Shown here piece by piece: positions 2 through 44,005 of a stretch of DNA of 64,000 bases. This DNA is from a virus. Location of the stretch: positions 186,001-250,000 of the IMG/VR virus record IMGVR_UViG_3300021197_001489; one strand, written 5' to 3'. Positions within the stretch are counted from its first letter, which is position 1; the number at the start of each line of letters is the position of its first letter. The notes under the pieces are model-generated. The model saw only the letters and a list, made by a program, of their open reading frames with translations, was not told the origin of the DNA and made no database searches. Both the position numbers and the translations under genes were made by a program.

Positions 2-1471
2 ATGGCGGCTGTTGATGCAAGCAAAATGAACAAGCAGGCAAACTATACGCCGTTTAGCGACAAACAAAGTCCAGATGGGTTACCAGAGAAGAAAAAAGAT
101 AACAAGATGTTTGAAAAAGAGTCTGATGTTGAAAGAGATGATCGTGCAGAAAAAGCAGGACGTGAAGTAAAGCGTGATGCAAAATATGATCACTATCGGC
201 ATGCTGGTAAAGATGGCAAGTCAGTAACCAAAGACATTGAGTATGATGAGAAGCATGACAAAGATGGAATGCACGAAGCTCAAGGCTATGACGATAAAGA
301 AGACGAGTCAATGGGTATGCGTACTGGCAAAGAGTCAGACAAAAAGCAGTCAATGAAAGATCGTAGAGATGATTCCTATGGGAAATTTGGCAAACGTGAT
401 AAAGAACACGAAGATGGAAAGATGCACATGGGTGAAAACTCAGGCACACTTAAAGACGCAGCCAGACAAGGCGTGTTAGCACGTTTAGCAGAACTAGCCG
501 GTGTACCAGCACAAGAAATTGAAGAAGCACTAGGTACTCCACAAGAGATTGCAAACAAGATTATGTCTGAAAATCCACTTGATGAAGCAGACGTCGAAGA
601 AGGTAATGCATTCTCAGGTGCTATGGCACAAGCTAAAAAAGATGGCAAAGATGATTTTGAAGTTGACGGCAAGAAGTACAAAGTATCTGAAGCTGAGATG
701 GAAGAAGATCACATGGACATGAAAACACTCAAATGTAAAGAGTGTGGTGATATGCTTGGCATGCCAACTACAGATTGTGAATGTGACAGTATGGATCCAA
801 AAGGTGACAACTGGATTATGGTTGATGTTGACAATGATGGCGATATGGATATGGCAGTTGCAAACGAAGCAGCCAAGCCAGATTTTGCAGATATTGACGG
901 AGACGGCGACAAAAAAGAAGATATGAAAAAAGCTGCCAAAGACAAAGCCAAGAACGAAGACAAAGTTGAAGAAACCACAGTAGCTGGAGCAATTGCAACA
1001 GATGCTAGCGGCAACGGAAAAGCATTATACAAGCAGGCAAGTGTTTATGAGTCAAACGAAATTGCCCGTGCAGCAAGCAAACTAATGGAAGGCATGGACA
1101 TCAATGTTAGTTTAAGTGACCGAGCTGGTCCCAGTCTAACCATTAATGCAACTGATGAAGATGCAATGAAATTAGGTGGATTGCTTAAACTAGCCGGAAT
1201 TGGTATGAACATGCAGAATGAAATGACTGAAGAGATGGAATTTGCAAATGGTGCAGATGATACTGCAACAGCAGATACAGACACATTGGTTAACGGTATT
1301 GCTGGCGGACTAAACGGTCCAAAGATGCAAGTGAACCCAAACAACATGGCTGATAATCCGCTTGCTATGAAAGGTATGAAAAATAACTCAGTCAACCTTG
1401 GTGAGTCAGAGCTTGAAGAAACAAGTGCAAGTCATTTAATGGAACTTTACAAGGAATACAAAGCAAAATGA
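2..1471 (+). CDS. Acidic structural/head-associated protein with EF-hand-like loops (5' end may lie outside window)
   Basis: The frame is open to the window edge, so the ATG at base 2 may be internal to a longer gene. The first 140 residues are extremely rich in Lys, Asp and Glu. Around residues 240-262 lies a cysteine cluster (CKECG and CEC), followed by two Asp-rich calcium-loop-like segments, DVDNDGDMD and DIDGDGD. A helical C-terminal part ends in a charged tail. It overlaps the next gene by ATGA. I do not recognise a named family; composition and neighbours suggest a virion or prohead protein. Calcium and metal binding are inferences. Confidence 0.6.
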   Translation: MAAVDASKMNKQANYTPFSDKQSPDGLPEKKKDNKMFEKESDVERDDRAEKAGREVKRDAKYDHYRHAGKDGKSVTKDIEYDEKHDKDGMHEAQGYDDKEDESMGMRTGKESDKKQSMKDRRDDSYGKFGKRDKEHEDGKMHMGENSGTLKDAARQGVLARLAELAGVPAQEIEEALGTPQEIANKIMSENPLDEADVEEGNAFSGAMAQAKKDGKDDFEVDGKKYKVSEAEMEEDHMDMKTLKCKECGDMLGMPTTDCECDSMDPKGDNWIMVDVDNDGDMDMAVANEAAKPDFADIDGDGDKKEDMKKAAKDKAKNEDKVEETTVAGAIATDASGNGKALYKQASVYESNEIARAASKLMEGMDINVSLSDRAGPSLTINATDEDAMKLGGLLKLAGIGMNMQNEMTEEMEFANGADDTATADTDTLVNGIAGGLNGPKMQVNPNNMADNPLAMKGMKNNSVNLGESELEETSASHLMELYKEYKAK

Positions 1472-17094: not shown

Positions 17095-17679
17095 GTGAAA
17101 ATTTTAGCAGTTGGGTGCAGTTTTATGTGTAGACACGAACACGTGATTCCTCAATGCGAAGTAGTTGCAAAACGTTTAGGTGCAGATATAGACAACAGGA
17201 GCAAAGCAGGTAATGGAAACACTCATATAGTTTACAACACGATTGATGCTTTGTTAGAAAACAGTTATGATTTAGTTTTAGTTGGATGGAGCAATGCTCT
17301 TAGATGGGATTATATAACTGCACCACACAAGTGGTTTTCATTTAAAGTAAGCGATAATTTATCATCAGTGAAAGCCGGTATAGATGTTGAAGGATCAATG
17401 TACAGACACTGGAGTAGTAAGGTAATACTGTTAGTTAATTATTTTCGCACCAAAGGCATTTCTTTTGTAATGTGGAATAGCTTGGATTGTTGGCATTACG
17501 AAGATACTATGTTGAACAAAGAGTTAAAAAATATAAAAGAATTTATAGATATAGAAACAAGTCAAATTACCGACTTACGAAGTAAAGCACAATGGTTTTC
17601 TACAGATGATCACCATCCTAATCAACAAAGCCAAGATGAATGGGCAGATAAGATATTAGAAAGAGTAATAGGATGTTAA
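17095..17679 (+). CDS. SGNH-hydrolase-like protein (GCS type)
   Basis: A 194-residue product with block I AVGCSFMCR (Gly-Cys-Ser in place of Gly-Asp-Ser), a strand DLVLVGWSNALRWD and block V TDDHHPN containing Asp-x-x-His. This is the layout of SGNH esterases. It is one of five such paralogues in the window (others at 35747, 37859, 39572 and 40258). GTG start. It could remove or add acyl groups on glycans. The altered block I leaves catalysis uncertain. Confidence 0.55.
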   Translation: MKILAVGCSFMCRHEHVIPQCEVVAKRLGADIDNRSKAGNGNTHIVYNTIDALLENSYDLVLVGWSNALRWDYITAPHKWFSFKVSDNLSSVKAGIDVEGSMYRHWSSKVILLVNYFRTKGISFVMWNSLDCWHYEDTMLNKELKNIKEFIDIETSQITDLRSKAQWFSTDDHHPNQQSQDEWADKILERVIGC

Positions 17680-18350
17680 TGAGAAACGGAAATTGGTGGA
17701 CACCAAAAGGCACTGCCGGCAAATCTGGTGACCAGATCAGGGAAGAAAATTTCAGTTGCATTGAGCCTATAAAAAAAGCAGTGGCCTATTGTACAAAACA
17801 TGAAAATGCAATTGATGTAGGTACATGGATAGGTGACAGTACAGTGCTCATGGCTGGCTTATTTACGAATGTAATTGGATTCGAACCGCATCCGATAGTG
17901 CATGTTTGTTGCGAAAAGAATTTACAAGAACGCGGCATAGATAATGTTGCAGTGTATAATATAGCACTAAGCAATGAAAACAAGTTGATTGATTTGCATA
18001 CTGGTAAAAGCACATTTATGGGATGGGTAAGTGATAAAGACGAAAAGCCAAAGGATATTGCAGTACACAACACACAGAAAGTACAAAGTTTATACTTAGA
18101 CAGTTATGATTTTGAAGACATAGACTTTATCAAGATAGATGTTGACAGTCACGAAGGATATCTATTGCAAGGCGCGCAGAACTTTTTTGAAACTAATTCA
18201 CCTGTGGTTTTGATAGAATATAAACAAAGAATAATACTAGACAGACAACCAGAAGATACGCCCGATGCATTTGAATTATTGAATAGTTACGGGTATTCAT
18301 TGAAGGAAAAAGTGGAAAAAGCAGACTGGGTGTTTACTCGTGATAAATGA
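17679..18350 (+). CDS. FkbM-family methyltransferase
   Basis: A 223-residue product with NAIDVGTWIGDSTVLMAG (motif I), VIGFEPHP (acidic strand 2 end, the FEP signature of FkbM), VQSLYLDSY and IDFIKIDVDSHEGYLLQGA (FkbM KID-x-EG signature), and VVLIEYK. The ATG at 17679 overlaps the previous stop and has AGGA at the right distance; a start six bases earlier is possible. FkbM enzymes O-methylate sugars and polyketides. A paralogue lies at 22019 on the other strand. Confidence 0.8.
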   Translation: MRNGNWWTPKGTAGKSGDQIREENFSCIEPIKKAVAYCTKHENAIDVGTWIGDSTVLMAGLFTNVIGFEPHPIVHVCCEKNLQERGIDNVAVYNIALSNENKLIDLHTGKSTFMGWVSDKDEKPKDIAVHNTQKVQSLYLDSYDFEDIDFIKIDVDSHEGYLLQGAQNFFETNSPVVLIEYKQRIILDRQPEDTPDAFELLNSYGYSLKEKVEKADWVFTRDK

Positions 18351-18371
18351 TAATAAGGACCACGGATTACA

Positions 18372-18548
18372 ATGACTGAAATGACTGAAACAAAACAATC
18401 TAAAATGGAACGTATCTTTGCATTAGAAGATGAAATTGCCTATGCACAAACACAACTACAGCCACAAGATACTGGATGGATCAGCACTGGAATAAGTTGG
18501 CTGCGGCACCGGGTGCGTGAATTGAAGGAAGAACTAGATGGTAGATAA
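18372..18548 (+). CDS. Small helical protein (58 aa), hypothetical
   Basis: An ATG behind AAGGACC opens a 58-codon frame ending at TAA 18546-18548. The product is a likely two-helix protein with a hinge at Pro-Gln-Asp-Thr-Gly and a basic SWLRHRVRELKEEL helix. It overlaps the start of the cytidylyltransferase-cupin gene by 11 bases, so translation is probably coupled. No family recognised. Confidence 0.55.
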   Translation: MTEMTETKQSKMERIFALEDEIAYAQTQLQPQDTGWISTGISWLRHRVRELKEELDGR

Positions 18549-19398
18549 TAGAAGACAGCCCAAGTCGGAACCCGGAGAATTTCTTCCAGGCGTGAAATTT
18601 AAAGATATTGATTATACTATTGTGCTAGTAACAGGTGGATTTGATCCACTACATACTGGACACATTGAATATTTTAAAGCGGCAGCAACTTACGGCAACA
18701 TACTGCTAGTAGGTGTTAATTCAGATAGTTGGCTCGAACGCAAAAAAGGGCGCAGCTTTATGCCCATTGCTGAACGTGCAGACATTATTGGTCATTTAGG
18801 AATGGTTGGCGGTGTCGTGAGTTTTGACAACGAATTTGATGCTGACGGCAGTGCAAAAAAGTTTATACAAACAACATTGGACAACTATCCAACAGCCAAA
18901 GTGGTATTTGCCAATGGCGGTGACAGAACAGACAACAACATTCCAGAAATGGATATCCAAGATCCAAGATTGAAGTTTATTTTTGGTGTGGGTGGAGAAA
19001 ACAAAAAGAACTCAAGTTCCTGGATTCTCAAAGAATGGGAAGCACCAAAAATAGAACGCGAATGGGGACACTATAGAGAACTTTACAGTGGCGAAGGCTT
19101 TCAAGTTAAGGAATTGGTTATTGCTCCGCATAGTAAACTTAGTATGCAGCGGCACAAACACCGTAGCGAAACTTGGAATTTGGTAAGCGGCGTTGCACAT
19201 GTACTAACCAGCACCAACAACAGTGATCCTTTAGACGGTGCACAAAGACAAATATTGACCCCGCCTAATCCTGTAGACATTCCCAAGGGTGTGTGGCACC
19301 AAGGAGTTAATGACAGCGACGAACCAGCCCACATTGTTGAAGTGTGGAAGGGTGTAAGCCCATTATTATCAGAAAGTGACATTGAAAGATGGAATTAG
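18538..19398 (+). CDS. Cytidylyltransferase-cupin fusion protein
   Basis: A 286-residue two-domain protein. Residues 20-150 form a nucleotidyltransferase with VTGGFDPLHTGHIEYF (HxGH motif, RfaE/TagD type) and a C-terminal SSSWILKEW segment in place of the usual ISSTxI. Residues 175-286 are a cupin with MQRHKHRSETWNLVSG and a second His motif near IPKGVWHQG, as in mannose-6-phosphate isomerase type II. It may activate a sugar or polyol as a CDP derivative. It overlaps the genes on both sides. Confidence 0.75.
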   Translation: MVDNRRQPKSEPGEFLPGVKFKDIDYTIVLVTGGFDPLHTGHIEYFKAAATYGNILLVGVNSDSWLERKKGRSFMPIAERADIIGHLGMVGGVVSFDNEFDADGSAKKFIQTTLDNYPTAKVVFANGGDRTDNNIPEMDIQDPRLKFIFGVGGENKKNSSSWILKEWEAPKIEREWGHYRELYSGEGFQVKELVIAPHSKLSMQRHKHRSETWNLVSGVAHVLTSTNNSDPLDGAQRQILTPPNPVDIPKGVWHQGVNDSDEPAHIVEVWKGVSPLLSESDIERWN

Positions 19399-34961: not shown

Positions 34962-35186
34962 ATGGGATTGACAAGACCTAAAGTATCACAAGTTGAAAAA
35001 AAGCCCAAAAGCCAAGATGGACATTTTTGGGTAAGCATGGTAAAGAGTGTACTGCGACTGATTGGATGCTATGCACTGTGGACTGCCGCAACCGTAATTG
35101 GTGGTGTAGTAGCCGTTCCGCTAGTACTAGCAGCAGGGTTGTTTGCAGCCGCCGAAGTGCTAGGCATTGTTGAAGAATTGGTATGA
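34962..35186 (+). CDS. Small membrane protein (74 aa)
   Basis: A 74-residue protein from the ATG behind AAAGGAGAAAA. A basic N-terminal 25 residues precede two hydrophobic segments (about 29-45 and 47-68) rich in Ala, Val and Leu. It is expressed from a strong early-type promoter and coupled to the DnaE-like gene by ATGA. Function unknown; an early membrane protein could act on host envelope or exclusion. Confidence 0.65.
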   Translation: MGLTRPKVSQVEKKPKSQDGHFWVSMVKSVLRLIGCYALWTAATVIGGVVAVPLVLAAGLFAAAEVLGIVEELV

Positions 35187-35743
35187 GTGCTGACGTAGAC
35201 ATTGACTTTGCTGACAGACAGCAAATAATTGACTTGATTCGGTGTACACCTGCACGACAAAATGCAGATGGCCGCAAGCATAACAGTGGTGTCTACGTTA
35301 CTCCAATTCCACGAGATGCACAACATGATTGTGCTAGCATAACATACGAAGAAGCAGAAGATCGAGGATACTTCAAACTGGACTTGCTCAATATGAGTGT
35401 GTACAGTTTGATTCGTAACCAAGCACACTATGACAGTTTGCTAGCACAAGAACCACAGTGGCAGCTGATGTGGGAGCAACCAGGAATTGTTGAACAATTG
35501 GTACATGTGGGCAACTATGCACAACTGCTAAAAGAAATGCAACCAGACAGCATACAACGTATGGCTGCATTTATATCAATTATTCGTCCAGGAAAAGCAC
35601 ATCTAAAGAACAAGCCCTGGGACGAAGTGTTTGCCAGTGTGTGGGATGGTGATAGCACAGATGGATTTGTGTTTAAGAAAAGTCATGCAATTAGCTATGC
35701 AACGCTAGTAGCATTGCATCTCAACTTATTAACGGAAATATAA
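35183..35743 (+). CDS. Miniature DnaE-like (C-family polymerase) protein
   Basis: A 186-residue protein with, in order, ADVDIDFADR at the N-terminus (the two palm aspartates of C-family polymerases), GYFKLDLLN (about 63-70, the third palm Asp position), SIIRPGKAHL (the RPG motif) and FKKSHAISYA (the KSHA motif near the finger end). These motifs are spread over about 600 residues in DnaE, so this is a strongly condensed relative. PHP and most finger sequences are missing. I believe similar proteins occur in marine T4-like phages. Whether it polymerises DNA is unknown. Confidence 0.6.
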   Translation: MSADVDIDFADRQQIIDLIRCTPARQNADGRKHNSGVYVTPIPRDAQHDCASITYEEAEDRGYFKLDLLNMSVYSLIRNQAHYDSLLAQEPQWQLMWEQPGIVEQLVHVGNYAQLLKEMQPDSIQRMAAFISIIRPGKAHLKNKPWDEVFASVWDGDSTDGFVFKKSHAISYATLVALHLNLLTEI

Positions 35744-35746
35744 TTA

Positions 35747-36475
35747 ATGGCTATTCTTTACAGTAACGGTTGTAGTTTTACTGCTAACTTTGATGTTGAC
35801 CGCAGTATGCGATATCCAACACTAATTGGCAAACACTTTGTCTGGGAAGTGATTGATCATGCACTGCCTCAAAGTTGCAATAGCAAGATCATTAGGTGCA
35901 CAATACGTGATTGTTTGCAACTGCTGGACCGGAATGAAAAGATCACAGCATTAATACAATTAACGTTTCTTGAAAGATTTGAATATGCAGGCGACCCTAA
36001 TGGGGCAAACCAGTGGCAATACAGTAATGGTACAATAAGGGACGAGTTTGAAGTAATTAAATCTAACGATGACGCCAATTGGCCAAAAGAAATTAGAAAG
36101 TATGCTAACAGCATTTTTATGCATCAACGCTATAATGCATTATGTGCGCAACTATTTTCTAACTTAGTAGGATTGATTAGTTTCTTTAAGGCTAACAATA
36201 TCAAATACCGTATTTTTTCAGGACCTTCTCTTGTTAATGGTGTCAATCACAATGTGCCTATTAACCCGGTCAATAGCCGGGCTATTGAATGTAAAGACAC
36301 TATATTACAAGATGCGTTTTACCAGCATTGTATATCAAAAGATACTAATGTATTATCATTAATTGACTTTAACATGCTAAGTGTTGCAGACGCAAATGTG
36401 CCTGCACATCCAACACCCGAAGGCATGCAAAAAATAGCTGATTACTTTATTAATCTACTTTGCGAACAAGCGTAA
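35747..36475 (+). CDS. SGNH-hydrolase-like protein (GCS type)
   Basis: A 242-residue product with ILYSNGCSFTANFD at the N-terminus, a middle strand ITALIQLTFLERFEY and a C-terminal VPAHPTPEGMQKIADY that carries the block V His. It belongs to the five-member family in this window. The Asp of block V appears absent. It converges with a minus-strand gene, overlapping by 26 bases. Confidence 0.5.
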   Translation: MAILYSNGCSFTANFDVDRSMRYPTLIGKHFVWEVIDHALPQSCNSKIIRCTIRDCLQLLDRNEKITALIQLTFLERFEYAGDPNGANQWQYSNGTIRDEFEVIKSNDDANWPKEIRKYANSIFMHQRYNALCAQLFSNLVGLISFFKANNIKYRIFSGPSLVNGVNHNVPINPVNSRAIECKDTILQDAFYQHCISKDTNVLSLIDFNMLSVADANVPAHPTPEGMQKIADYFINLLCEQA

Positions 36476-36827
36476 TACTGCGTCGTTTAATTTTTTTGCG
36501 CGATAGTTCTGCTAAACTGGTAGCAGGTCCCAGAATGATATCCAAATCTTTATTGATAAACGTTTTAAGGAAGGGTCTGAACTGTTCCCAGTCTTGTTTG
36601 AGGAATATGTTGATAGGTATGCTTCTATTGCTTTCCCACCACCACTGATTTGCGTACTCCAAAAAGTCACGCTTTTGCTGGTCGTTGATAATGCCGCCAA
36701 AGTCATAGATTGTTGTGATTTGATCATCTCTGTTCTGAATCACACCCACGTACTCATTGCCTGCATAAGTGCAGAAAGTAATAAATGGGTATCGCTCAGC
36801 GATTTTTTCGAATAGCTCTACGCCCAT
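36450..36827 (-). CDS. Conserved marine T4-like phage protein on the minus strand
   Basis: A 125-residue protein with FEKIAERYPFITFCTYAGNEYVGVIQN (two strands), TTIYDFG, a WWWESNRSIPINIFL core and a basic C-terminal SLAELSRKKIKRRSITLVRKV split by a turn. It is flanked by plus-strand genes. I believe it has close relatives in cyanophages; function unknown. Its ATG overlaps the late promoter box of the divergent structural gene. Confidence 0.6.
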   Translation of the reverse strand: MGVELFEKIAERYPFITFCTYAGNEYVGVIQNRDDQITTIYDFGGIINDQQKRDFLEYANQWWWESNRSIPINIFLKQDWEQFRPFLKTFINKDLDIILGPATSLAELSRKKIKRRSITLVRKVD

Positions 36828-37858: not shown

Positions 37859-38602
37859 GTGTCAATCAAACGTGTTATAGCATTTGGCGATAGTTGGACA
37901 TATGGCGACGAGCTTGTTGATCCTGCGCTGCGCCACTTAGACGAAGACCAATTCCGAGATCATTATGACAGTAACAAACCATGGCGTCTGGCTAACTGCT
38001 ATGCTGGACTTGTTGCTGATCATTATGGCGTTGAACTAGACAACATGGCTTTTCCTGGCAGCAGTCTTGAAAGCATGCGCTGGACATTGCAATGGTTAAT
38101 CAAACACAGTGGGCAAGATTTGCAGGATGCATTGTTGCTTGTGGGACTAACTGATAGTAGCAGACAAAGTTGGTTTAATCCTTTACACGAATCCAGCATG
38201 AAAGATCCACCTTGGAACAGACACATGCACGGAACGTGGCTTACACAACCCAATTCAGATATAAATGATAACTGGTTTAAATTGCAAAAATTATGGTTAG
38301 GCATGAGTTATCACAAAGAGTGGAGCGAGTTCAACTTTCAACAAACAATTAATCTGTTTGATTATGCTTCAATGACCACTGGCGCTACTGTAATACAATT
38401 CAGTGTTCTTGAAAATAATTGGACAGCTAATGTACCAACACTGCTTTATCCAGGCATGAACTGGCGCACTATATTGCAGCAAAAAAAGATGTCTGAAGGT
38501 ATACAACCTTTTGCTTCGGGCGGCCACCCCAATGAAAAAGGACATGAAATTATATCAAAACACTTGATTGAACACATAAAGCATGCTAAAATAATAGCAT
38601 AA
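37859..38602 (+). CDS. SGNH-hydrolase-like protein (GDS type)
   Basis: A 247-residue product read from GTG behind AGGAGG. RVIAFGDSWTYGDE is a classical block I with the nucleophile Ser. Then come DALLLVGLTDSSRQ in the block III position and GGHPNEKGHEII in block V, where the His is present but the Asp is not obvious. It precedes the primase gene with a one-base overlap. Candidate esterase or deacetylase. Confidence 0.6.
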   Translation: MSIKRVIAFGDSWTYGDELVDPALRHLDEDQFRDHYDSNKPWRLANCYAGLVADHYGVELDNMAFPGSSLESMRWTLQWLIKHSGQDLQDALLLVGLTDSSRQSWFNPLHESSMKDPPWNRHMHGTWLTQPNSDINDNWFKLQKLWLGMSYHKEWSEFNFQQTINLFDYASMTTGATVIQFSVLENNWTANVPTLLYPGMNWRTILQQKKMSEGIQPFASGGHPNEKGHEIISKHLIEHIKHAKIIA

Positions 38603-39579
38603 TGATAGATGTTCTAAGTTACTTGCCTAATGAGCGTAAAGCTACAGTATCTGGCTGGGTCAGTTTCAATGGGCCTTGCTGTGTTCACAACGGCGAAAGT
38701 CAGGACAAACGCAAACGTGGTGGCATACGCCAACAAGATGATGAGTGGAGTTATCACTGTTTTAACTGTGGCTTCACTGCTAGTTTTACACCCGGGCGTC
38801 CAGTAAGCTACAAAGCAAGACGGCTACTTGAATGGTTAGGCGTTGACAGTGTAGACATTGAACGTCTTAACTTAGAAAGTCTCAAGCGTAAAAGTTTGCT
38901 GGATTTAACCACTGAACGCAACCAGATACGTCATGTAGATATCAGTTTTAACGAAACTGAAGTACCCGAAGGTGTGGAACTGATTGATCCTGAACTAGAG
39001 CAGCATCAACGCTATGTTGAGTACCTGGCAAACAGGGGCATAGTGTTAGAGTATCCATTTCTAGTTGATCGCAAACGTAAACCGCGTGATAGGATTGTGG
39101 TTCCGTTTACATACAAGAACAGAATTGTAGGACATACATCACGCTACTTGGACAATCGCATGCCCAAGTTTATCAACAGTCAGCAGCAGGGTTATGTGTT
39201 TGGTTATGATTTACAAAAGCCACATTGGACAAGTGCTATTGTTACAGAAGGCATATTTGATGCACTCAGTATCAGTGGTTTGGCTGTTATGCATGACACT
39301 ATCAGCCCACAGCAAGCACAGTTACTAAAACAATTAAAGCGCAAGATCATTGTTGTGCCAGATCAGGACAAGGCCGGGTTGAGTATTATAGACGCAGCAA
39401 TTGAAAATCGTTTTGCAGTAAGCATACCAGAATGGCCCAATGCTGTTAAAGATGTTAACGATGCTGTGGTAAAATATGGTGTTGCAAGTACAATGTTGCA
39501 GATACACAACAACGCAGAAACAAGCAAGATCAAAATTGAAATGTATAAGAAACGTCTGCAAAGGAAACTAAGTGAGTAG
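38602..39579 (+). CDS. gp61: DnaG-type DNA primase (T4 gp61-like)
   Basis: Synthesises RNA primers with the gp41 helicase. An N-terminal zinc module has Cys26, Cys27, His29 and CFNC (53-56). The TOPRIM domain shows IVTEGIFDAL (about 212, catalytic Glu) and IVVPDQDKAGL (Asp-x-Asp). Length 325 residues, near T4 gp61 (342). It lies two SGNH genes upstream of the helicase, instead of next to it. Confidence 0.88.
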   Translation: MIDVLSYLPNERKATVSGWVSFNGPCCVHNGESQDKRKRGGIRQQDDEWSYHCFNCGFTASFTPGRPVSYKARRLLEWLGVDSVDIERLNLESLKRKSLLDLTTERNQIRHVDISFNETEVPEGVELIDPELEQHQRYVEYLANRGIVLEYPFLVDRKRKPRDRIVVPFTYKNRIVGHTSRYLDNRMPKFINSQQQGYVFGYDLQKPHWTSAIVTEGIFDALSISGLAVMHDTISPQQAQLLKQLKRKIIVVPDQDKAGLSIIDAAIENRFAVSIPEWPNAVKDVNDAVVKYGVASTMLQIHNNAETSKIKIEMYKKRLQRKLSE

Positions 39580-40261
39580 ACTTTACATATTTGGAGATAG
39601 CTACAGCACACCATACTACTGTGTTGAACCGCAGCAAAGTTGGTGGGGGCTTATAGCGAAACAACTTGGTCTTCCGGTAAGCAACTACAGCTGGCCAGGC
39701 AACAACATTGACAGTATACAGCACATTATTGTTAGCAACCAAGATCAGTTTAACAAAGATGATTTTGTTATAATTGGAATACCACCTGTAGAAAGACAAA
39801 CCATATTTAAAAAAGACGCTGCTCCAAAATCTGTAACACATTTCAATAAAGACGTAGTACAAACACACATATCTGATGTATTAAGCCACCAGGGATTAGA
39901 TCAGTGTACCATGCACGAGATGGGCAAAGACATTGTTAATGTATACAATGTTAGTTGGCAAGAAGCCAAAATACTTAAAGATATAATTATGTTGAGTCAC
40001 TGGCTTGATTCAGTTGTGGACAAACATCTTATAGTGAATCTAAGTGTACCGTTTCAACAGCCCACTGAGTGGCCTACACTTAAACATTTACAAGATCAAG
40101 CACGGAAAAATAAAAACATAAAAGTGTTTGCTGACACTTACTACAGTGTTAACCACTCAGTGAACAAACCAGTAGATTATGATACACACGGTTGGTTTGG
40201 ACATCATGGTGCTGAAGGAAACGCATTATGGTATAACAGTGTACTTAGGACAATGATATGA
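39572..40261 (+). CDS. SGNH-hydrolase-like protein (GDS type)
   Basis: A 229-residue product read from GTG, overlapping the primase by 8 bases. LYIFGDSYSTPYYCVEP is block I, NYSWPGNNIDSI contains the block II Gly/Asn, DFVIIGIPPVERQ is the block III position and GWFGHHGAEGN is a His-rich block V. One of the five paralogues. Confidence 0.58.
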   Translation: MSRLYIFGDSYSTPYYCVEPQQSWWGLIAKQLGLPVSNYSWPGNNIDSIQHIIVSNQDQFNKDDFVIIGIPPVERQTIFKKDAAPKSVTHFNKDVVQTHISDVLSHQGLDQCTMHEMGKDIVNVYNVSWQEAKILKDIIMLSHWLDSVVDKHLIVNLSVPFQQPTEWPTLKHLQDQARKNKNIKVFADTYYSVNHSVNKPVDYDTHGWFGHHGAEGNALWYNSVLRTMI

Positions 40262-40911
40262 GATTTTATTTTAATGGATGTAGTATTACCCAAGGCGCTG
40301 GCTTTGCTAACGAAAAGTTAAATCCAAACATTTATCCTAACTTGATTGCAACTGATTATATCAATGATGCATCAGGCGGAGCAAGCAATTTAAAGATATT
40401 TTTACATTCAAGTAGAGCAATTATTGACAACTTGGCTGATATTTATATTGTGCAATGGAGCGCATTGCACCGTCATTGGGTTTATGCAGCACCAGATCAA
40501 GGTACCTATATAGGATCAGTGGCAGATTCACATCAATTAAAAGACTTTGTTGCTCAATATCAGTTGCTCAATCACGATTATGGTAATATACTACAACTAA
40601 TAGATTTTTGTCGTATTCTTCAGGCCTTGGCAAACAGTTGTAATGCCAAGTTGTTGTTTGTTAATGGACTTGTTGATTGGAGTAACAAAATTGATTGGAT
40701 GCACAAACTAGTAGAGGATGCTAGCAGTGATCATGAAAGATTTGTTGAAAACTTGCAAAACAATATGGAATTGGTAGATTGGAACTTGTGGATAAATCCC
40801 TGGAGCAGCATGTATGACAGTAGACTTGATGAAGCTAACGATGGATTACATCCAGGGCCGTTAACACATAAACACATAGCCGACCAAATAAGGGATAAAT
40901 TAATAGCATGA
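40258..40911 (+). CDS. SGNH-hydrolase-like protein (GCS type)
   Basis: A 217-residue product with RFYFNGCSITQGAGFA (block I with Cys for Asp), NDASGGASNLKI (block II Gly), IYIVQWSALHRHW (block III position) and EANDGLHPGPLTHKHIA, a good block V Asp-x-x-His. It is coupled by ATGA to both the SGNH gene before it and the helicase gene after it. Confidence 0.58.
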   Translation: MRFYFNGCSITQGAGFANEKLNPNIYPNLIATDYINDASGGASNLKIFLHSSRAIIDNLADIYIVQWSALHRHWVYAAPDQGTYIGSVADSHQLKDFVAQYQLLNHDYGNILQLIDFCRILQALANSCNAKLLFVNGLVDWSNKIDWMHKLVEDASSDHERFVENLQNNMELVDWNLWINPWSSMYDSRLDEANDGLHPGPLTHKHIADQIRDKLIA

Positions 40912-42314
40912 CTGATTACACATATGACGTACAAAAATTATTCCTAGAGATGATAATGCAAGATGCAGAAAGCTATCTGCGTGTGCAAAATATTTTCAAT
41001 GTGGAAAACTTTGACAGAGACTTACGCGATGCAGCCGAGCTTATTTACAACCACGCTGACCAACACAAAACACTTCCAGAACGCTCGCAGCTAAAAGCAG
41101 TAACAGGTACTGACTTGCTGGAGATTCCAGATCTCAATGAGGGCCACACTGATTGGTTTTTGGGAGAGTTTGAAGCATTTACTAGGCGCAGTGAACTAGA
41201 ACGAGCTATCTTAAAAAGTGCAGACTTGCTAGAAAAAGGCGAGTATGACCCAGTTGAAAAGCTAATCAAGGACGCAGTGCAAATAAGTTTAACAAAAGAC
41301 TTGGGCACAGATTATTTTGAAGATCCGAGAGCAAGACTTGCAGCACTCAAAGACAATAACGGACAGAACAGTACTGGCTGGAACAACTTAGACAAGTTGT
41401 TGTATGGCGGATTTAACAGAGGCGAACTACAGATATTTGCTGGCGGCTCTGGATCGGGTAAAAGTTTGTTTATGCAAAACCTAGCAGTGAACTGGATGGA
41501 AGCTGGACTAAGCGGAGTTTACATTACACTTGAATTAAGTGAAGGTTTGACTGCTATGCGTATTGATAGTATGTTGACAAATACGCCAAGTAAACAGCTA
41601 TTCAAAGATCTAGATACTGTTGAAATGAAAGTAAAGATGATGGGCAAGAAAGCAGGAGGTCTGCAAATAAAGTACATGCCTGCACAAAGCAACGTCAATG
41701 ACATAAGAGCATTTGTAAAAGAACTAAGCATCAAACAAGGCAAAAGCATAGACTTTATGTGCATTGACTACTTGGATTTGCTTATGCCAGTAAGTGCTAA
41801 GGTATCGCCAAATGATCTGTTTGTGAAAGACAAGTATGTATCAGAAGAACTGCGTAACTTGGCAAGAGAACTTAACATACTGTTTGTTACAGCATCTCAG
41901 CTGAACAGAGGTGCTGTAGAAGAAGTAGAGTTTGATCACAGTCATATATCTGGTGGTATTAGCAAGATCAATACTGCTGACAATGTGTTTGGTATCTTTA
42001 CAAGCAGAGCAATGCGTGAAAGAGGACGTTATCAACTACAGCTAATGAAGACCAGAAGTTCAAGCGGTGTTGGAATGAAAGTTGATTTGGAGTTTGATGC
42101 TGAAAGTTTGCGTATACGTGACTTAGGAGATGATGAAGAGTATCAACAGTTTAAGAAACAATCAAGTTCGATTTATGATCAAATAAAAGCAAAGTCGCTT
42201 GTAACAGACAGCGAAACAGAAGCAACTGTGGCGGATGAGCCTGGCAAGATTGTTGCTGACGTACAAAGCACAAAACTTAAACAGATGTTAGCTGGCATTA
42301 AGCAAAAAGGTTAA
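40908..42314 (+). CDS. gp41: Replicative helicase (T4 gp41-like, DnaB family)
   Basis: The hexameric 5'-3' helicase of the replisome. The N-terminal DnaB-type helical domain spans about 1-150; the RecA-like domain has Walker A GGSGSGKS (about 180-187), Walker B FMCIDYLDLL and the downstream ASQLNRGA sensor. At 468 residues it matches T4 gp41 (475). It ends 4 bases inside the convergent polymerase gene. Confidence 0.93.
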   Translation: MTDYTYDVQKLFLEMIMQDAESYLRVQNIFNVENFDRDLRDAAELIYNHADQHKTLPERSQLKAVTGTDLLEIPDLNEGHTDWFLGEFEAFTRRSELERAILKSADLLEKGEYDPVEKLIKDAVQISLTKDLGTDYFEDPRARLAALKDNNGQNSTGWNNLDKLLYGGFNRGELQIFAGGSGSGKSLFMQNLAVNWMEAGLSGVYITLELSEGLTAMRIDSMLTNTPSKQLFKDLDTVEMKVKMMGKKAGGLQIKYMPAQSNVNDIRAFVKELSIKQGKSIDFMCIDYLDLLMPVSAKVSPNDLFVKDKYVSEELRNLARELNILFVTASQLNRGAVEEVEFDHSHISGGISKINTADNVFGIFTSRAMRERGRYQLQLMKTRSSSGVGMKVDLEFDAESLRIRDLGDDEEYQQFKKQSSSIYDQIKAKSLVTDSETEATVADEPGKIVADVQSTKLKQMLAGIKQKG

Positions 42315-44005
42315 GCATACTGATCAATAGGCATTGCTTTTACGTTCTTGCGTTTTACTTTTAAAAAGTTGCTGTTGTCTTTGGTCCACATTTGTCCTTC
42401 GCCAACTATAACACTGTTACGAGCATACTTCACAGGACGGTCGACCACAAGATCAACATAACGCCCTTCGCCAACACCCAGTGTTATAAAATGTATGTAA
42501 TTTTTACTATCGCTTTTAAACACTCTACTGTTTGCTACTATTCCGGCAAACTGAAACTTGTCTAAAAACAAGTTTTGCAATCCCATGTTTGGCAAAAAGC
42601 CAGGGCTGTTCCATGCACCGTGCTCTTTGAAACTCTCAACAGGATCTTCTGTGATCCAGTTGTCAAAGCCTAAGTCACGTAGATCCCAGCCAGCACGTTT
42701 TGCTTCGTTGCGATATACCCAACGTGCATATGATCCTTGACAGTGCTTCAAGCAAGCACGCCAAAATTCTTTTGGATTGTGTACTTTATGATATGCCAAC
42801 GCCCATATAAGTCTACCCAAGTTAACTGCGTGTGCTCGGCACAAGCCAAATCCACTTAGGCTTTGCATTTGTTCGTAGATGTCATGCTTGTCTGGATGAT
42901 CACCTAGTTTTGCCATAAACTGCATCATCTTTTCTTCGTTCTTTTTGGCAAATGCTCGTCTGTACATGTCCGCTTCATAGGGATTGATGCCAATCAGTTT
43001 CATTATTTTGTGTATGGCATCGTCTTCATATACTATGGCATTCTTTTGTATGCCTTTTTCACTCCAGTCACGGAACCAACTGGCCTTGCGTCTACCTTCC
43101 ATAGCAACAGGACGTACCAAAGCACTAGCAAACACACAGTCTTCGACTCCTGTTGGCTGCAACGCTCGGAACAGTCTTTTCATGGTCGGCGATTCACCTT
43201 GTGTGACACCAAGTACATCGCCTCTGCACAACAAGTCACTGACTGCTTCATCTTGTTTTGGATATGAGTCTAGTCTTGTGTGAGGATCTATTTCTAATAG
43301 CTGTGATAATCCTCTGTTGGCCAGTATATCTACTTTCAAATGTTCCAGGTCTTCAACTTCGTTTTTGTCTAACAGTATGAGATTGTCGTCACGGAATAGA
43401 CTTTTGGGTAATGCTCTGTCAAACACAAGCACACCCCCACAGTGCTTGCTTATGCAACGTTTCTTGCCCATTAATTTGCGTTCAATGCGTTTTGCTTCTT
43501 TTTCGTCGACACCCAGTTTTGCATAATCTATGTCTTTTGGCAATCTGCCTTTTGCACCTAGACGTTTTGCTGCTTCGCGTTTTGCACTCTTTTCTCTGTA
43601 AAGCACATAGTTTGATATCCTGGCACTCTGTGTTGGCCATTTATCAAATACACGTTGCATTGCAAGTTCTTGTTTGTGATGCGGTATATCAATATCCACA
43701 TCAGGCAAGTCGTCTCTGTGTGGGTTTAAGAAACGTGCCAGTGGTATGTTCCACTCAATCGGATCAACATCAGTTATGCCCATGAGGTAGCAAACCAAAC
43801 TGCTACCAGCACTGCCGCGTGTCATGTGTGGTATGTCACTGTTGAGATCAAGTATAAGTCTTATTTTGAGAAAGTAATCTGTAAAACGCTGCTGAAGTAT
43901 AATTTCAAATTCTTCTGCTAGTCTATCTTGATATTCGTTGCCTACAGGAGTAGGTCTTCTAAATTGTTCTAATAATAATTCTATTTGCTCTAGTTCTGTT
44001 TTCAT
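42311..44005 (-). CDS. C-family DNA polymerase (DnaE-like, no PHP domain)
   Basis: A 564-residue protein starting within what is the palm region of bacterial DnaE. MTRGSAGSSLVCYLMGITDVDP (61-82, two segments) and DDLPDVDIDIPHHKQE (98-113) give the nucleotide-binding loop and two catalytic Asp. HLKVDILANRGLSQL gives the third Asp, ALVRPVAM the RPG-like position and GLCRAHAVNLGRL the KxHA motif. A C-terminal FAGIVANSRVFKSD segment resembles the OB fold. The PHP domain is missing. T4-like phages normally use a B-family enzyme; none is in the window. Leader shares a 42-base element with gp32. Confidence 0.8.
   Translation of the reverse strand: MKTELEQIELLLEQFRRPTPVGNEYQDRLAEEFEIILQQRFTDYFLKIRLILDLNSDIPHMTRGSAGSSLVCYLMGITDVDPIEWNIPLARFLNPHRDDLPDVDIDIPHHKQELAMQRVFDKWPTQSARISNYVLYREKSAKREAAKRLGAKGRLPKDIDYAKLGVDEKEAKRIERKLMGKKRCISKHCGGVLVFDRALPKSLFRDDNLILLDKNEVEDLEHLKVDILANRGLSQLLEIDPHTRLDSYPKQDEAVSDLLCRGDVLGVTQGESPTMKRLFRALQPTGVEDCVFASALVRPVAMEGRRKASWFRDWSEKGIQKNAIVYEDDAIHKIMKLIGINPYEADMYRRAFAKKNEEKMMQFMAKLGDHPDKHDIYEQMQSLSGFGLCRAHAVNLGRLIWALAYHKVHNPKEFWRACLKHCQGSYARWVYRNEAKRAGWDLRDLGFDNWITEDPVESFKEHGAWNSPGFLPNMGLQNLFLDKFQFAGIVANSRVFKSDSKNYIHFITLGVGEGRYVDLVVDRPVKYARNSVIVGEGQMWTKDNSNFLKVKRKNVKAMPIDQYA

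Follow-up and report, generated by a model that had tools for sequence, protein, structure and literature searches.

T4-like phages usually replicate with the B-family polymerase gp43, while cellular C-family polymerases carry a PHP domain together with clamp- and tau-binding parts. A 64,000-nucleotide stretch of virus DNA (the window; positions 186001-250000 of the 316-kb IMG/VR record IMGVR_UViG_3300021197_001489, here termed G000) had been described, in a sequence-only reading, as encoding a compact C-family polymerase in a T4-like replication setting, and the protein was proposed to be either the replicative enzyme or a second polymerase. The locus raises two questions: whether this protein is a genuine C-family polymerase, and what role it could have in such a phage. 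The features considered are collected in Table 1.

Table 1. Positions of the polymerase, helicase and primase features in the window (numbered from its first letter, or on the whole record where marked G000) and of the parts of the compact polymerase (residue numbers).
Feature	Position	Strand	Length	Evidence
One-piece compact C-family DNA polymerase	42311..44005	minus	564 aa	Pfam, 24-member alignment, AlphaFold model
Palm and thumb of compact polymerase	residues ~20-240			GS motif 64-65, D102/D104, D226
Fingers of compact polymerase	residues ~243-450			steric-gate H392
Linker, then predicted OB domain of compact polymerase	OB residues 480-560
Predicted C-unit of split minimal Pol III alpha	35183..35743	+	186 aa	phrog_11778 3.7e-56
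Predicted N-unit of split minimal Pol III alpha	G000:312704-313192		162 aa	phrog_11127 7.7e-43
Small conserved gene between C-unit and primase	36450..36827	minus		phrog_11637 1.1e-35; synteny
DnaG/gp61-type primase with Toprim	38602..39579	+	325 aa	phrog_47 3.5e-36, Toprim_2 1.4e-7
gp41/DnaB-type replicative helicase	40908..42314	+	468 aa	phrog_19 1.2e-64, DnaB_C 3.4e-20

The open reading frame of 564 codons is real, with the correction that it is encoded on the minus strand; across these positions the plus strand is full of stops. Analysis of the translated protein with Pfam identified DNA_pol3_alpha (PF07733; 2.6e-41, residues 18-229) and DNA_pol3_finger (PF17657; 1.1e-16, residues 243-367), with no further match at E ≤ 1 and hence no PHP and no HhH, and the PDB sequence matches were bacterial DnaE. 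When the window protein was aligned with DnaE of E. coli and of phages, its residues G64, S65, D102 and D104 corresponded to E. coli G363, S364, D401 and D403, while K224, D226 and H392 corresponded to K553, D555 and H760, the last of these being the proposed steric gate of E. coli DnaE (PMC8485763). All of these residues were invariant across 24 one-piece members, an alignment that contains relatives 39-88% identical to the window protein. The three palm aspartates noticed earlier are thus retained, none being lost anywhere in the alignment, and the protein has both a palm with the GS motif and three catalytic aspartates and fingers with the steric-gate histidine, as is expected of the C family. 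Values of dN/dS against four relatives ranged from 0.026 to 0.072, revealing strong purifying selection, and these values together with relatives in at least 551 candidate IMG/VR stretches indicate that the reading frame is not a chance one. Pfam, the alignment and an AlphaFold model agree that the product is a true C-family (DnaE-like) polymerase, as had been claimed.

The AlphaFold model, prepared with the 24-member alignment as input, had a pLDDT of 84.3 and a pTM of 0.83, and only residues 302-323 were unsure. The core of the model (residues 1-450) could be superposed on M. tuberculosis DnaE1 (5lew) with a Z-score of 33.4 and an rmsd of 4.9 over 442 aligned residues, and residues 6-559 on the eubacterial Pol III alpha ternary complex (3e0d_A) with a Z-score of 31.4 and an rmsd of 5.0 over 500 aligned residues. 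The segment 480-559 matched the OB folds of SSB and PriB (Z 7.4-7.9, rmsd 2.0-3.3, 71-84 aligned), and, since Z-scores below 8 may reflect a mere common arrangement, the OB assignment also leans on the 3e0d_A alignment, which runs through to residue 559. The predicted architecture is a C-family core at 1-450 with an OB fold C-terminal to it at about 480-560, consistent with the palm and the OB-like end expected from the letters. The sequence-only reading was also right that the PHP domain is missing, the palm beginning at about residue 20, and that most of the C-terminal clamp-binding part is gone. Only ~30 residues separate the fingers from the OB domain, the (HhH)2 and clamp-motif stretch of cellular enzymes is absent, and no clamp- or tau-binding part was recognisable. 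The alignment of members contained no conserved Q-x-x-[LM]-F-like clamp-binding motif. One candidate beta-clamp motif, LQNLF at about residues 476-480 of the window protein, was rejected, as it is not conserved and continues into the first strand of the OB fold. In the lineage (four loci) that resembles the homologue of LR756508, an uncultured huge phage of 484 kb, the compact protein has [LM]-E-K-F-F at its C-terminus, which is reminiscent of a PIP box for a PCNA-type clamp and is absent from the window lineage.

The gene families of G000 were searched one by one. An intact family-B gp43 of 886 aa was present at 25.8 kb (G000:25757), with ExoI FFDIE, ExoII NSEGYD and ExoIII YNRQDTAL as its exonuclease motifs and PolA DINSLYPS, PolB KINLNSLYG and PolC YGDTDS as its polymerase motifs. 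A gp43 elsewhere in the genome, for which the sequence-only reading had advised looking, does therefore exist, and because it is intact the compact enzyme is a second polymerase and gp43 has not been replaced; of the two roles first proposed, the second is supported and the first is not. An RFC-like clamp loader was found near 314.4-315.3 kb, and the second gene after gp43 is a candidate gp45 sliding clamp, unconfirmed by the profile libraries. Neither PHP (PF02811) nor a DnaQ-type RNase_T exonuclease was detected in G000, and no PF01612 exonuclease that could serve as a proofreading partner in trans and no family-A polymerase were found there. The Y-family ImuB-like protein (PF00817) gave no match in G000, in a related 328-kb genome (G001) or in LR756508, with controls positive. 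Such absences are weak evidence, since the G000 record is linear and may be incomplete. The single 886-aa frame of the G000 family-B polymerase differs from the situation in LR756508 (260.6-266.9 kb), PA5oct (217.6-221.4 kb) and Atu_ph07 (212.3-213.7 kb), where this polymerase extends over at least two open frames.

A further C-family gene in the window, the C-unit, was absent from the sequence-only reading. It begins exactly at a D-x-D-x-D motif (SADVDIDF) and contains the third aspartate (K65-x-D67) and fingers with H168, while the N-unit, encoded far away in the same genome, ends just before the D-x-D motif. Residues D4, D6, D8, K65, D67 and H168 were invariant across 16 C-units, and five N/C pairs (G000 and four cultured phages) agree. 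A model of the C-unit (pLDDT 88.3) aligned end to end with the palm and fingers of Pol III alpha (3e0d_A; Z 9.1, rmsd 4.5, 183 aligned), the next unrelated fold being at Z 3.3. Iyer et al. (2021, PMC7824862) described, in group 2.2 jumbo phages, a split minimal Pol III alpha that accompanies a family-B polymerase and has none of the other Pol III domains, and, judged by sequence, the N- and C-units of G000 are that enzyme. They occupy separate, distant genes, whereas the 564-aa protein is one chain. The compact polymerase is the second of two C-family polymerases in G000. Note that, within G000:312704-314113, the N-unit is near a gene whose product resembles a GroES co-chaperonin, and that in PA5oct, 121Q and Phosso the N-unit is located two genes before an annotated co-chaperonin.

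The relationship between the compact polymerase gene and its neighbours was also considered. The polymerase and helicase genes are convergent and their stop codons overlap by 4 bp (42311-42314). The claimed position next to the gp41 helicase is correct in full, while the gp61 primase, said to be adjacent as well, is ~3 kb away, with two genes intervening before the helicase gene. Both genes were confirmed in the cluster, the helicase being 49.7% identical to that of PA5oct, and the T4-like replication setting stands. PA5oct and Atu_ph07, neither of which has a compact gene there, share with the window the succession of C-unit, small antisense gene, primase and helicase. The small phrog_11637 gene keeps its place and strand in these two phages and in most relatives. 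Four genes interleaved with the C-unit, primase and helicase (35747-36475, 37859-38602, 39572-40261 and 40258-40911) have GDS/GCS-type N-termini (GDSWTYG, GDSYS, NGCSITQG and NGCSF, respectively) and by eye resemble SGNH/GDSL hydrolases; relatives carry differing subsets of them.

Of 154 distinct loci that contain the compact gene, 134 also had the helicase in the same stretch, and 49 had the split-polymerase C-unit. All 72 helicase-bearing loci of at least 77% identity had the convergent arrangement, while in the group of 60-66% identity the helicase was on the same strand in 39 loci and convergent in 23. As the gene remains beside the helicase despite this change of orientation, the data suggest that the compact polymerase is tied to the replication fork in the window's own lineages. 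In two deeper groups (53-58% and under 45% identity; 12 loci), no helicase was seen near the compact gene, and neither primase nor helicase was seen near it in deeper lineages including LR756508; the annotated neighbours in the deeper groups and LR756508 were carbamoyltransferase, endolysin, elongation-factor-like, tail and phosphate-transport genes. The fork tie is therefore lineage-specific and not universal. In LR756508, the translation elongation-factor-like gene (phrog_6880, 9.9e-127; 17208-19253 of the locus examined) is located close behind the compact polymerase.

The one-piece polymerase is carried by hundreds of IMG/VR contigs. Scans for stretches encoding relatives gave overlapping sets of 326, at least 551 and 372 confirmed, and the full-length members, counted from their probable starts, all had a length near 550-575 aa. 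A single scan of 84,980 bacterial species genomes confirmed no relatives, the degenerate patterns used being narrow and hence a weak test of bacterial origin. The LR756508 protein gave no close relatives by its own patterns, while an alignment query did give matches. The nearest matches labelled as 'Listeria', 'Staphylococcus' and 'Enterococcus' phages are unannotated contigs and were left out as evidence; one that was checked (H4) contains a 1073-aa DnaE frame. The one-piece form and the split C-unit were found together in G000, G001 and the 183-kb G004, with a family-B polymerase and the N-unit also in G000 and G001. LR756508 has a family-B polymerase and the one-piece form only, with no split C-unit found, and PA5oct and Atu_ph07 have a family-B polymerase and the split form only. 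Three genomes (G000, G001 and LR756508) were of sufficient length for a judgement, and in each of them the one-piece form occurs beside family B. A tree of the shared core placed 15 one-piece rows in one clade (100/100) and five split rows in another (100/100), and set the one-piece clade beside one ImuC and one Streptomyces plasmid DnaE (96/88), with long branches and few references. The tree itself separates the two forms; a joint compact-plus-split clade was not rejected (p-AU 0.225).

Comparison with known systems revealed both likenesses and differences. The split minimal Pol III alpha resembles the compact enzyme in being a C-family core without PHP, (HhH)2 and tau parts, in accompanying family B in T4-like jumbo phages and in sharing the primase-helicase neighbourhood; it differs in consisting of two genes whose units can hardly, if at all, accommodate thumb and OB, where the compact form is one chain that has both and belongs to a separate clade, with both forms coexisting in G000. 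Bacterial DnaE1 and DnaE2 share the palm-thumb-fingers fold, the catalytic triad, the steric gate and an OB domain after the fingers, while their ~1000-1160 aa include the PHP, (HhH)2, beta-clamp motif and C-terminal tau domain that the compact enzyme lacks. Phage DnaE-type replicases (PB1-like, Cronobacter phage Ss1, Rhizobium RHph_Y2 and Streptomyces Itza) are also C-family enzymes, 25-30% identical to the compact polymerase, and those compared here are much longer at 931-1161 aa. The homologue in LR756508, a one-piece protein with family B elsewhere in the genome, is 37% identical over 95% of the length; it differs from the window enzyme in that no split C-unit was found with it and in not being beside the helicase.

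The interpretation we consider probable is that the compact enzyme is an auxiliary, non-proofreading polymerase of the fork and that gp43 is the main replicase. The auxiliary part of this reading follows from the intact gp43 and the RFC-like clamp loader in G000, and the fork part from the helicase being present in most of the distinct loci and in both orientations; the failure to detect PHP and DnaQ-type partners in G000 also speaks for it. Points against it are the lineage-specific nature of the fork tie and the lack of a conserved clamp-binding motif. The enzyme is apparently catalytically competent and template-dependent, as judged from its conserved residues. It would synthesise DNA by the two-metal mechanism, its OB domain may grip the single-stranded template, and it would have low processivity and no proofreading of its own. 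Acting at the fork with primase and helicase, it could extend lagging-strand RNA primers for a short distance before handing over to gp43 on its clamp. By analogy, B. subtilis DnaE extends primers for PolC, and Pol alpha does likewise in eukaryotes. Such primer extension is the most likely single job of the enzyme, held at somewhat below an even chance at best, with lesion bypass next; nothing in the protein sequence shows a preference for RNA primers.

Lesion bypass would make the compact enzyme a non-proofreading translesion or repair polymerase of the DnaE2/ImuC type, which copies past lesions or fills repair gaps. This is an unlikely reading that nevertheless deserves weight, given that no PHP or DnaQ partner was found in G000, that the tree neighbours are the ImuC and the Streptomyces plasmid DnaE, that 'error-prone DNA polymerase' (PRK05672, 3e-52) is the top-scoring NCBIfam model and that the compact gene is away from replication genes in deep lineages. 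However, the NCBIfam scores were all far below the cut-offs with general DnaE models nearly equal, the tree placement involves long branches and few references, and the replicative helicase adjoins most members. The Y-family ImuB-like partner is also missing, and an ImuC complex as such was rejected on the PF00817 result for the same genomes, with the proviso that the record may be incomplete.

It is very unlikely that the compact enzyme is itself the main replicase, with gp43 vestigial or otherwise employed. The adjoining helicase and the complete active site would fit that role, but gp43 has all six exonuclease and polymerase motifs, the compact enzyme is missing its clamp- and tau-binding parts, and the same primase-helicase module occurs together with family B, but without the compact enzyme, in PA5oct and Atu_ph07. 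The presence of the C-unit and the compact gene in one module in 49 loci, and of both in G000, G001 and G004, could instead mean that the compact enzyme cooperates with the split units, as a scaffold lending thumb and OB, or that the two C-family enzymes copy different strands; we regard this as highly improbable, as each form is found alone (one-piece in LR756508, split in PA5oct and Atu_ph07) and both active sites look complete by themselves. Finally, the loss of several domains could point to a structural role for a DnaE homologue without catalytic activity, an extremely unlikely explanation given that the catalytic aspartates, GS motif and steric-gate histidine are invariant in 24 diverse members.

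Jumbo phages that have a minimal C-family polymerase in addition to family B have already been described (PMC7824862). PF07733 occurs in 51.9% of a marine jumbo-phage group as the one distinguishing gene, the form, split or one-piece, being unstated (PMC9123017). In the literature searched, no account was found of a one-piece enzyme that includes thumb and OB, or of such an enzyme occurring together with the split one; the key survey of replicases of viruses by Kazlauskas and Venclovas (2011) lies outside that literature and a prior mention is possible.

The G000 phage may divide the copying of its DNA among several enzymes. More tentatively, and less likely than not, a widespread aquatic group of T4-like jumbo phages could run three polymerases: gp43 for bulk synthesis, the one-piece enzyme for extending primers at the fork, and the two-protein C-family enzyme. 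If so, the phages would have made a division of labour of their own, comparable with that of Pol alpha with Pol delta or of DnaE with PolC, and the one-piece form would show the minimum size of a one-chain C-family polymerase. In hundreds of viral contigs, a chain of 564 residues that lacks the PHP, clamp and tau parts has kept its active site intact under strong selection. It is a small, testable C-family enzyme, and these phages provide a natural system for asking why family-B, split family-C and one-piece family-C polymerases are all retained in one phage.
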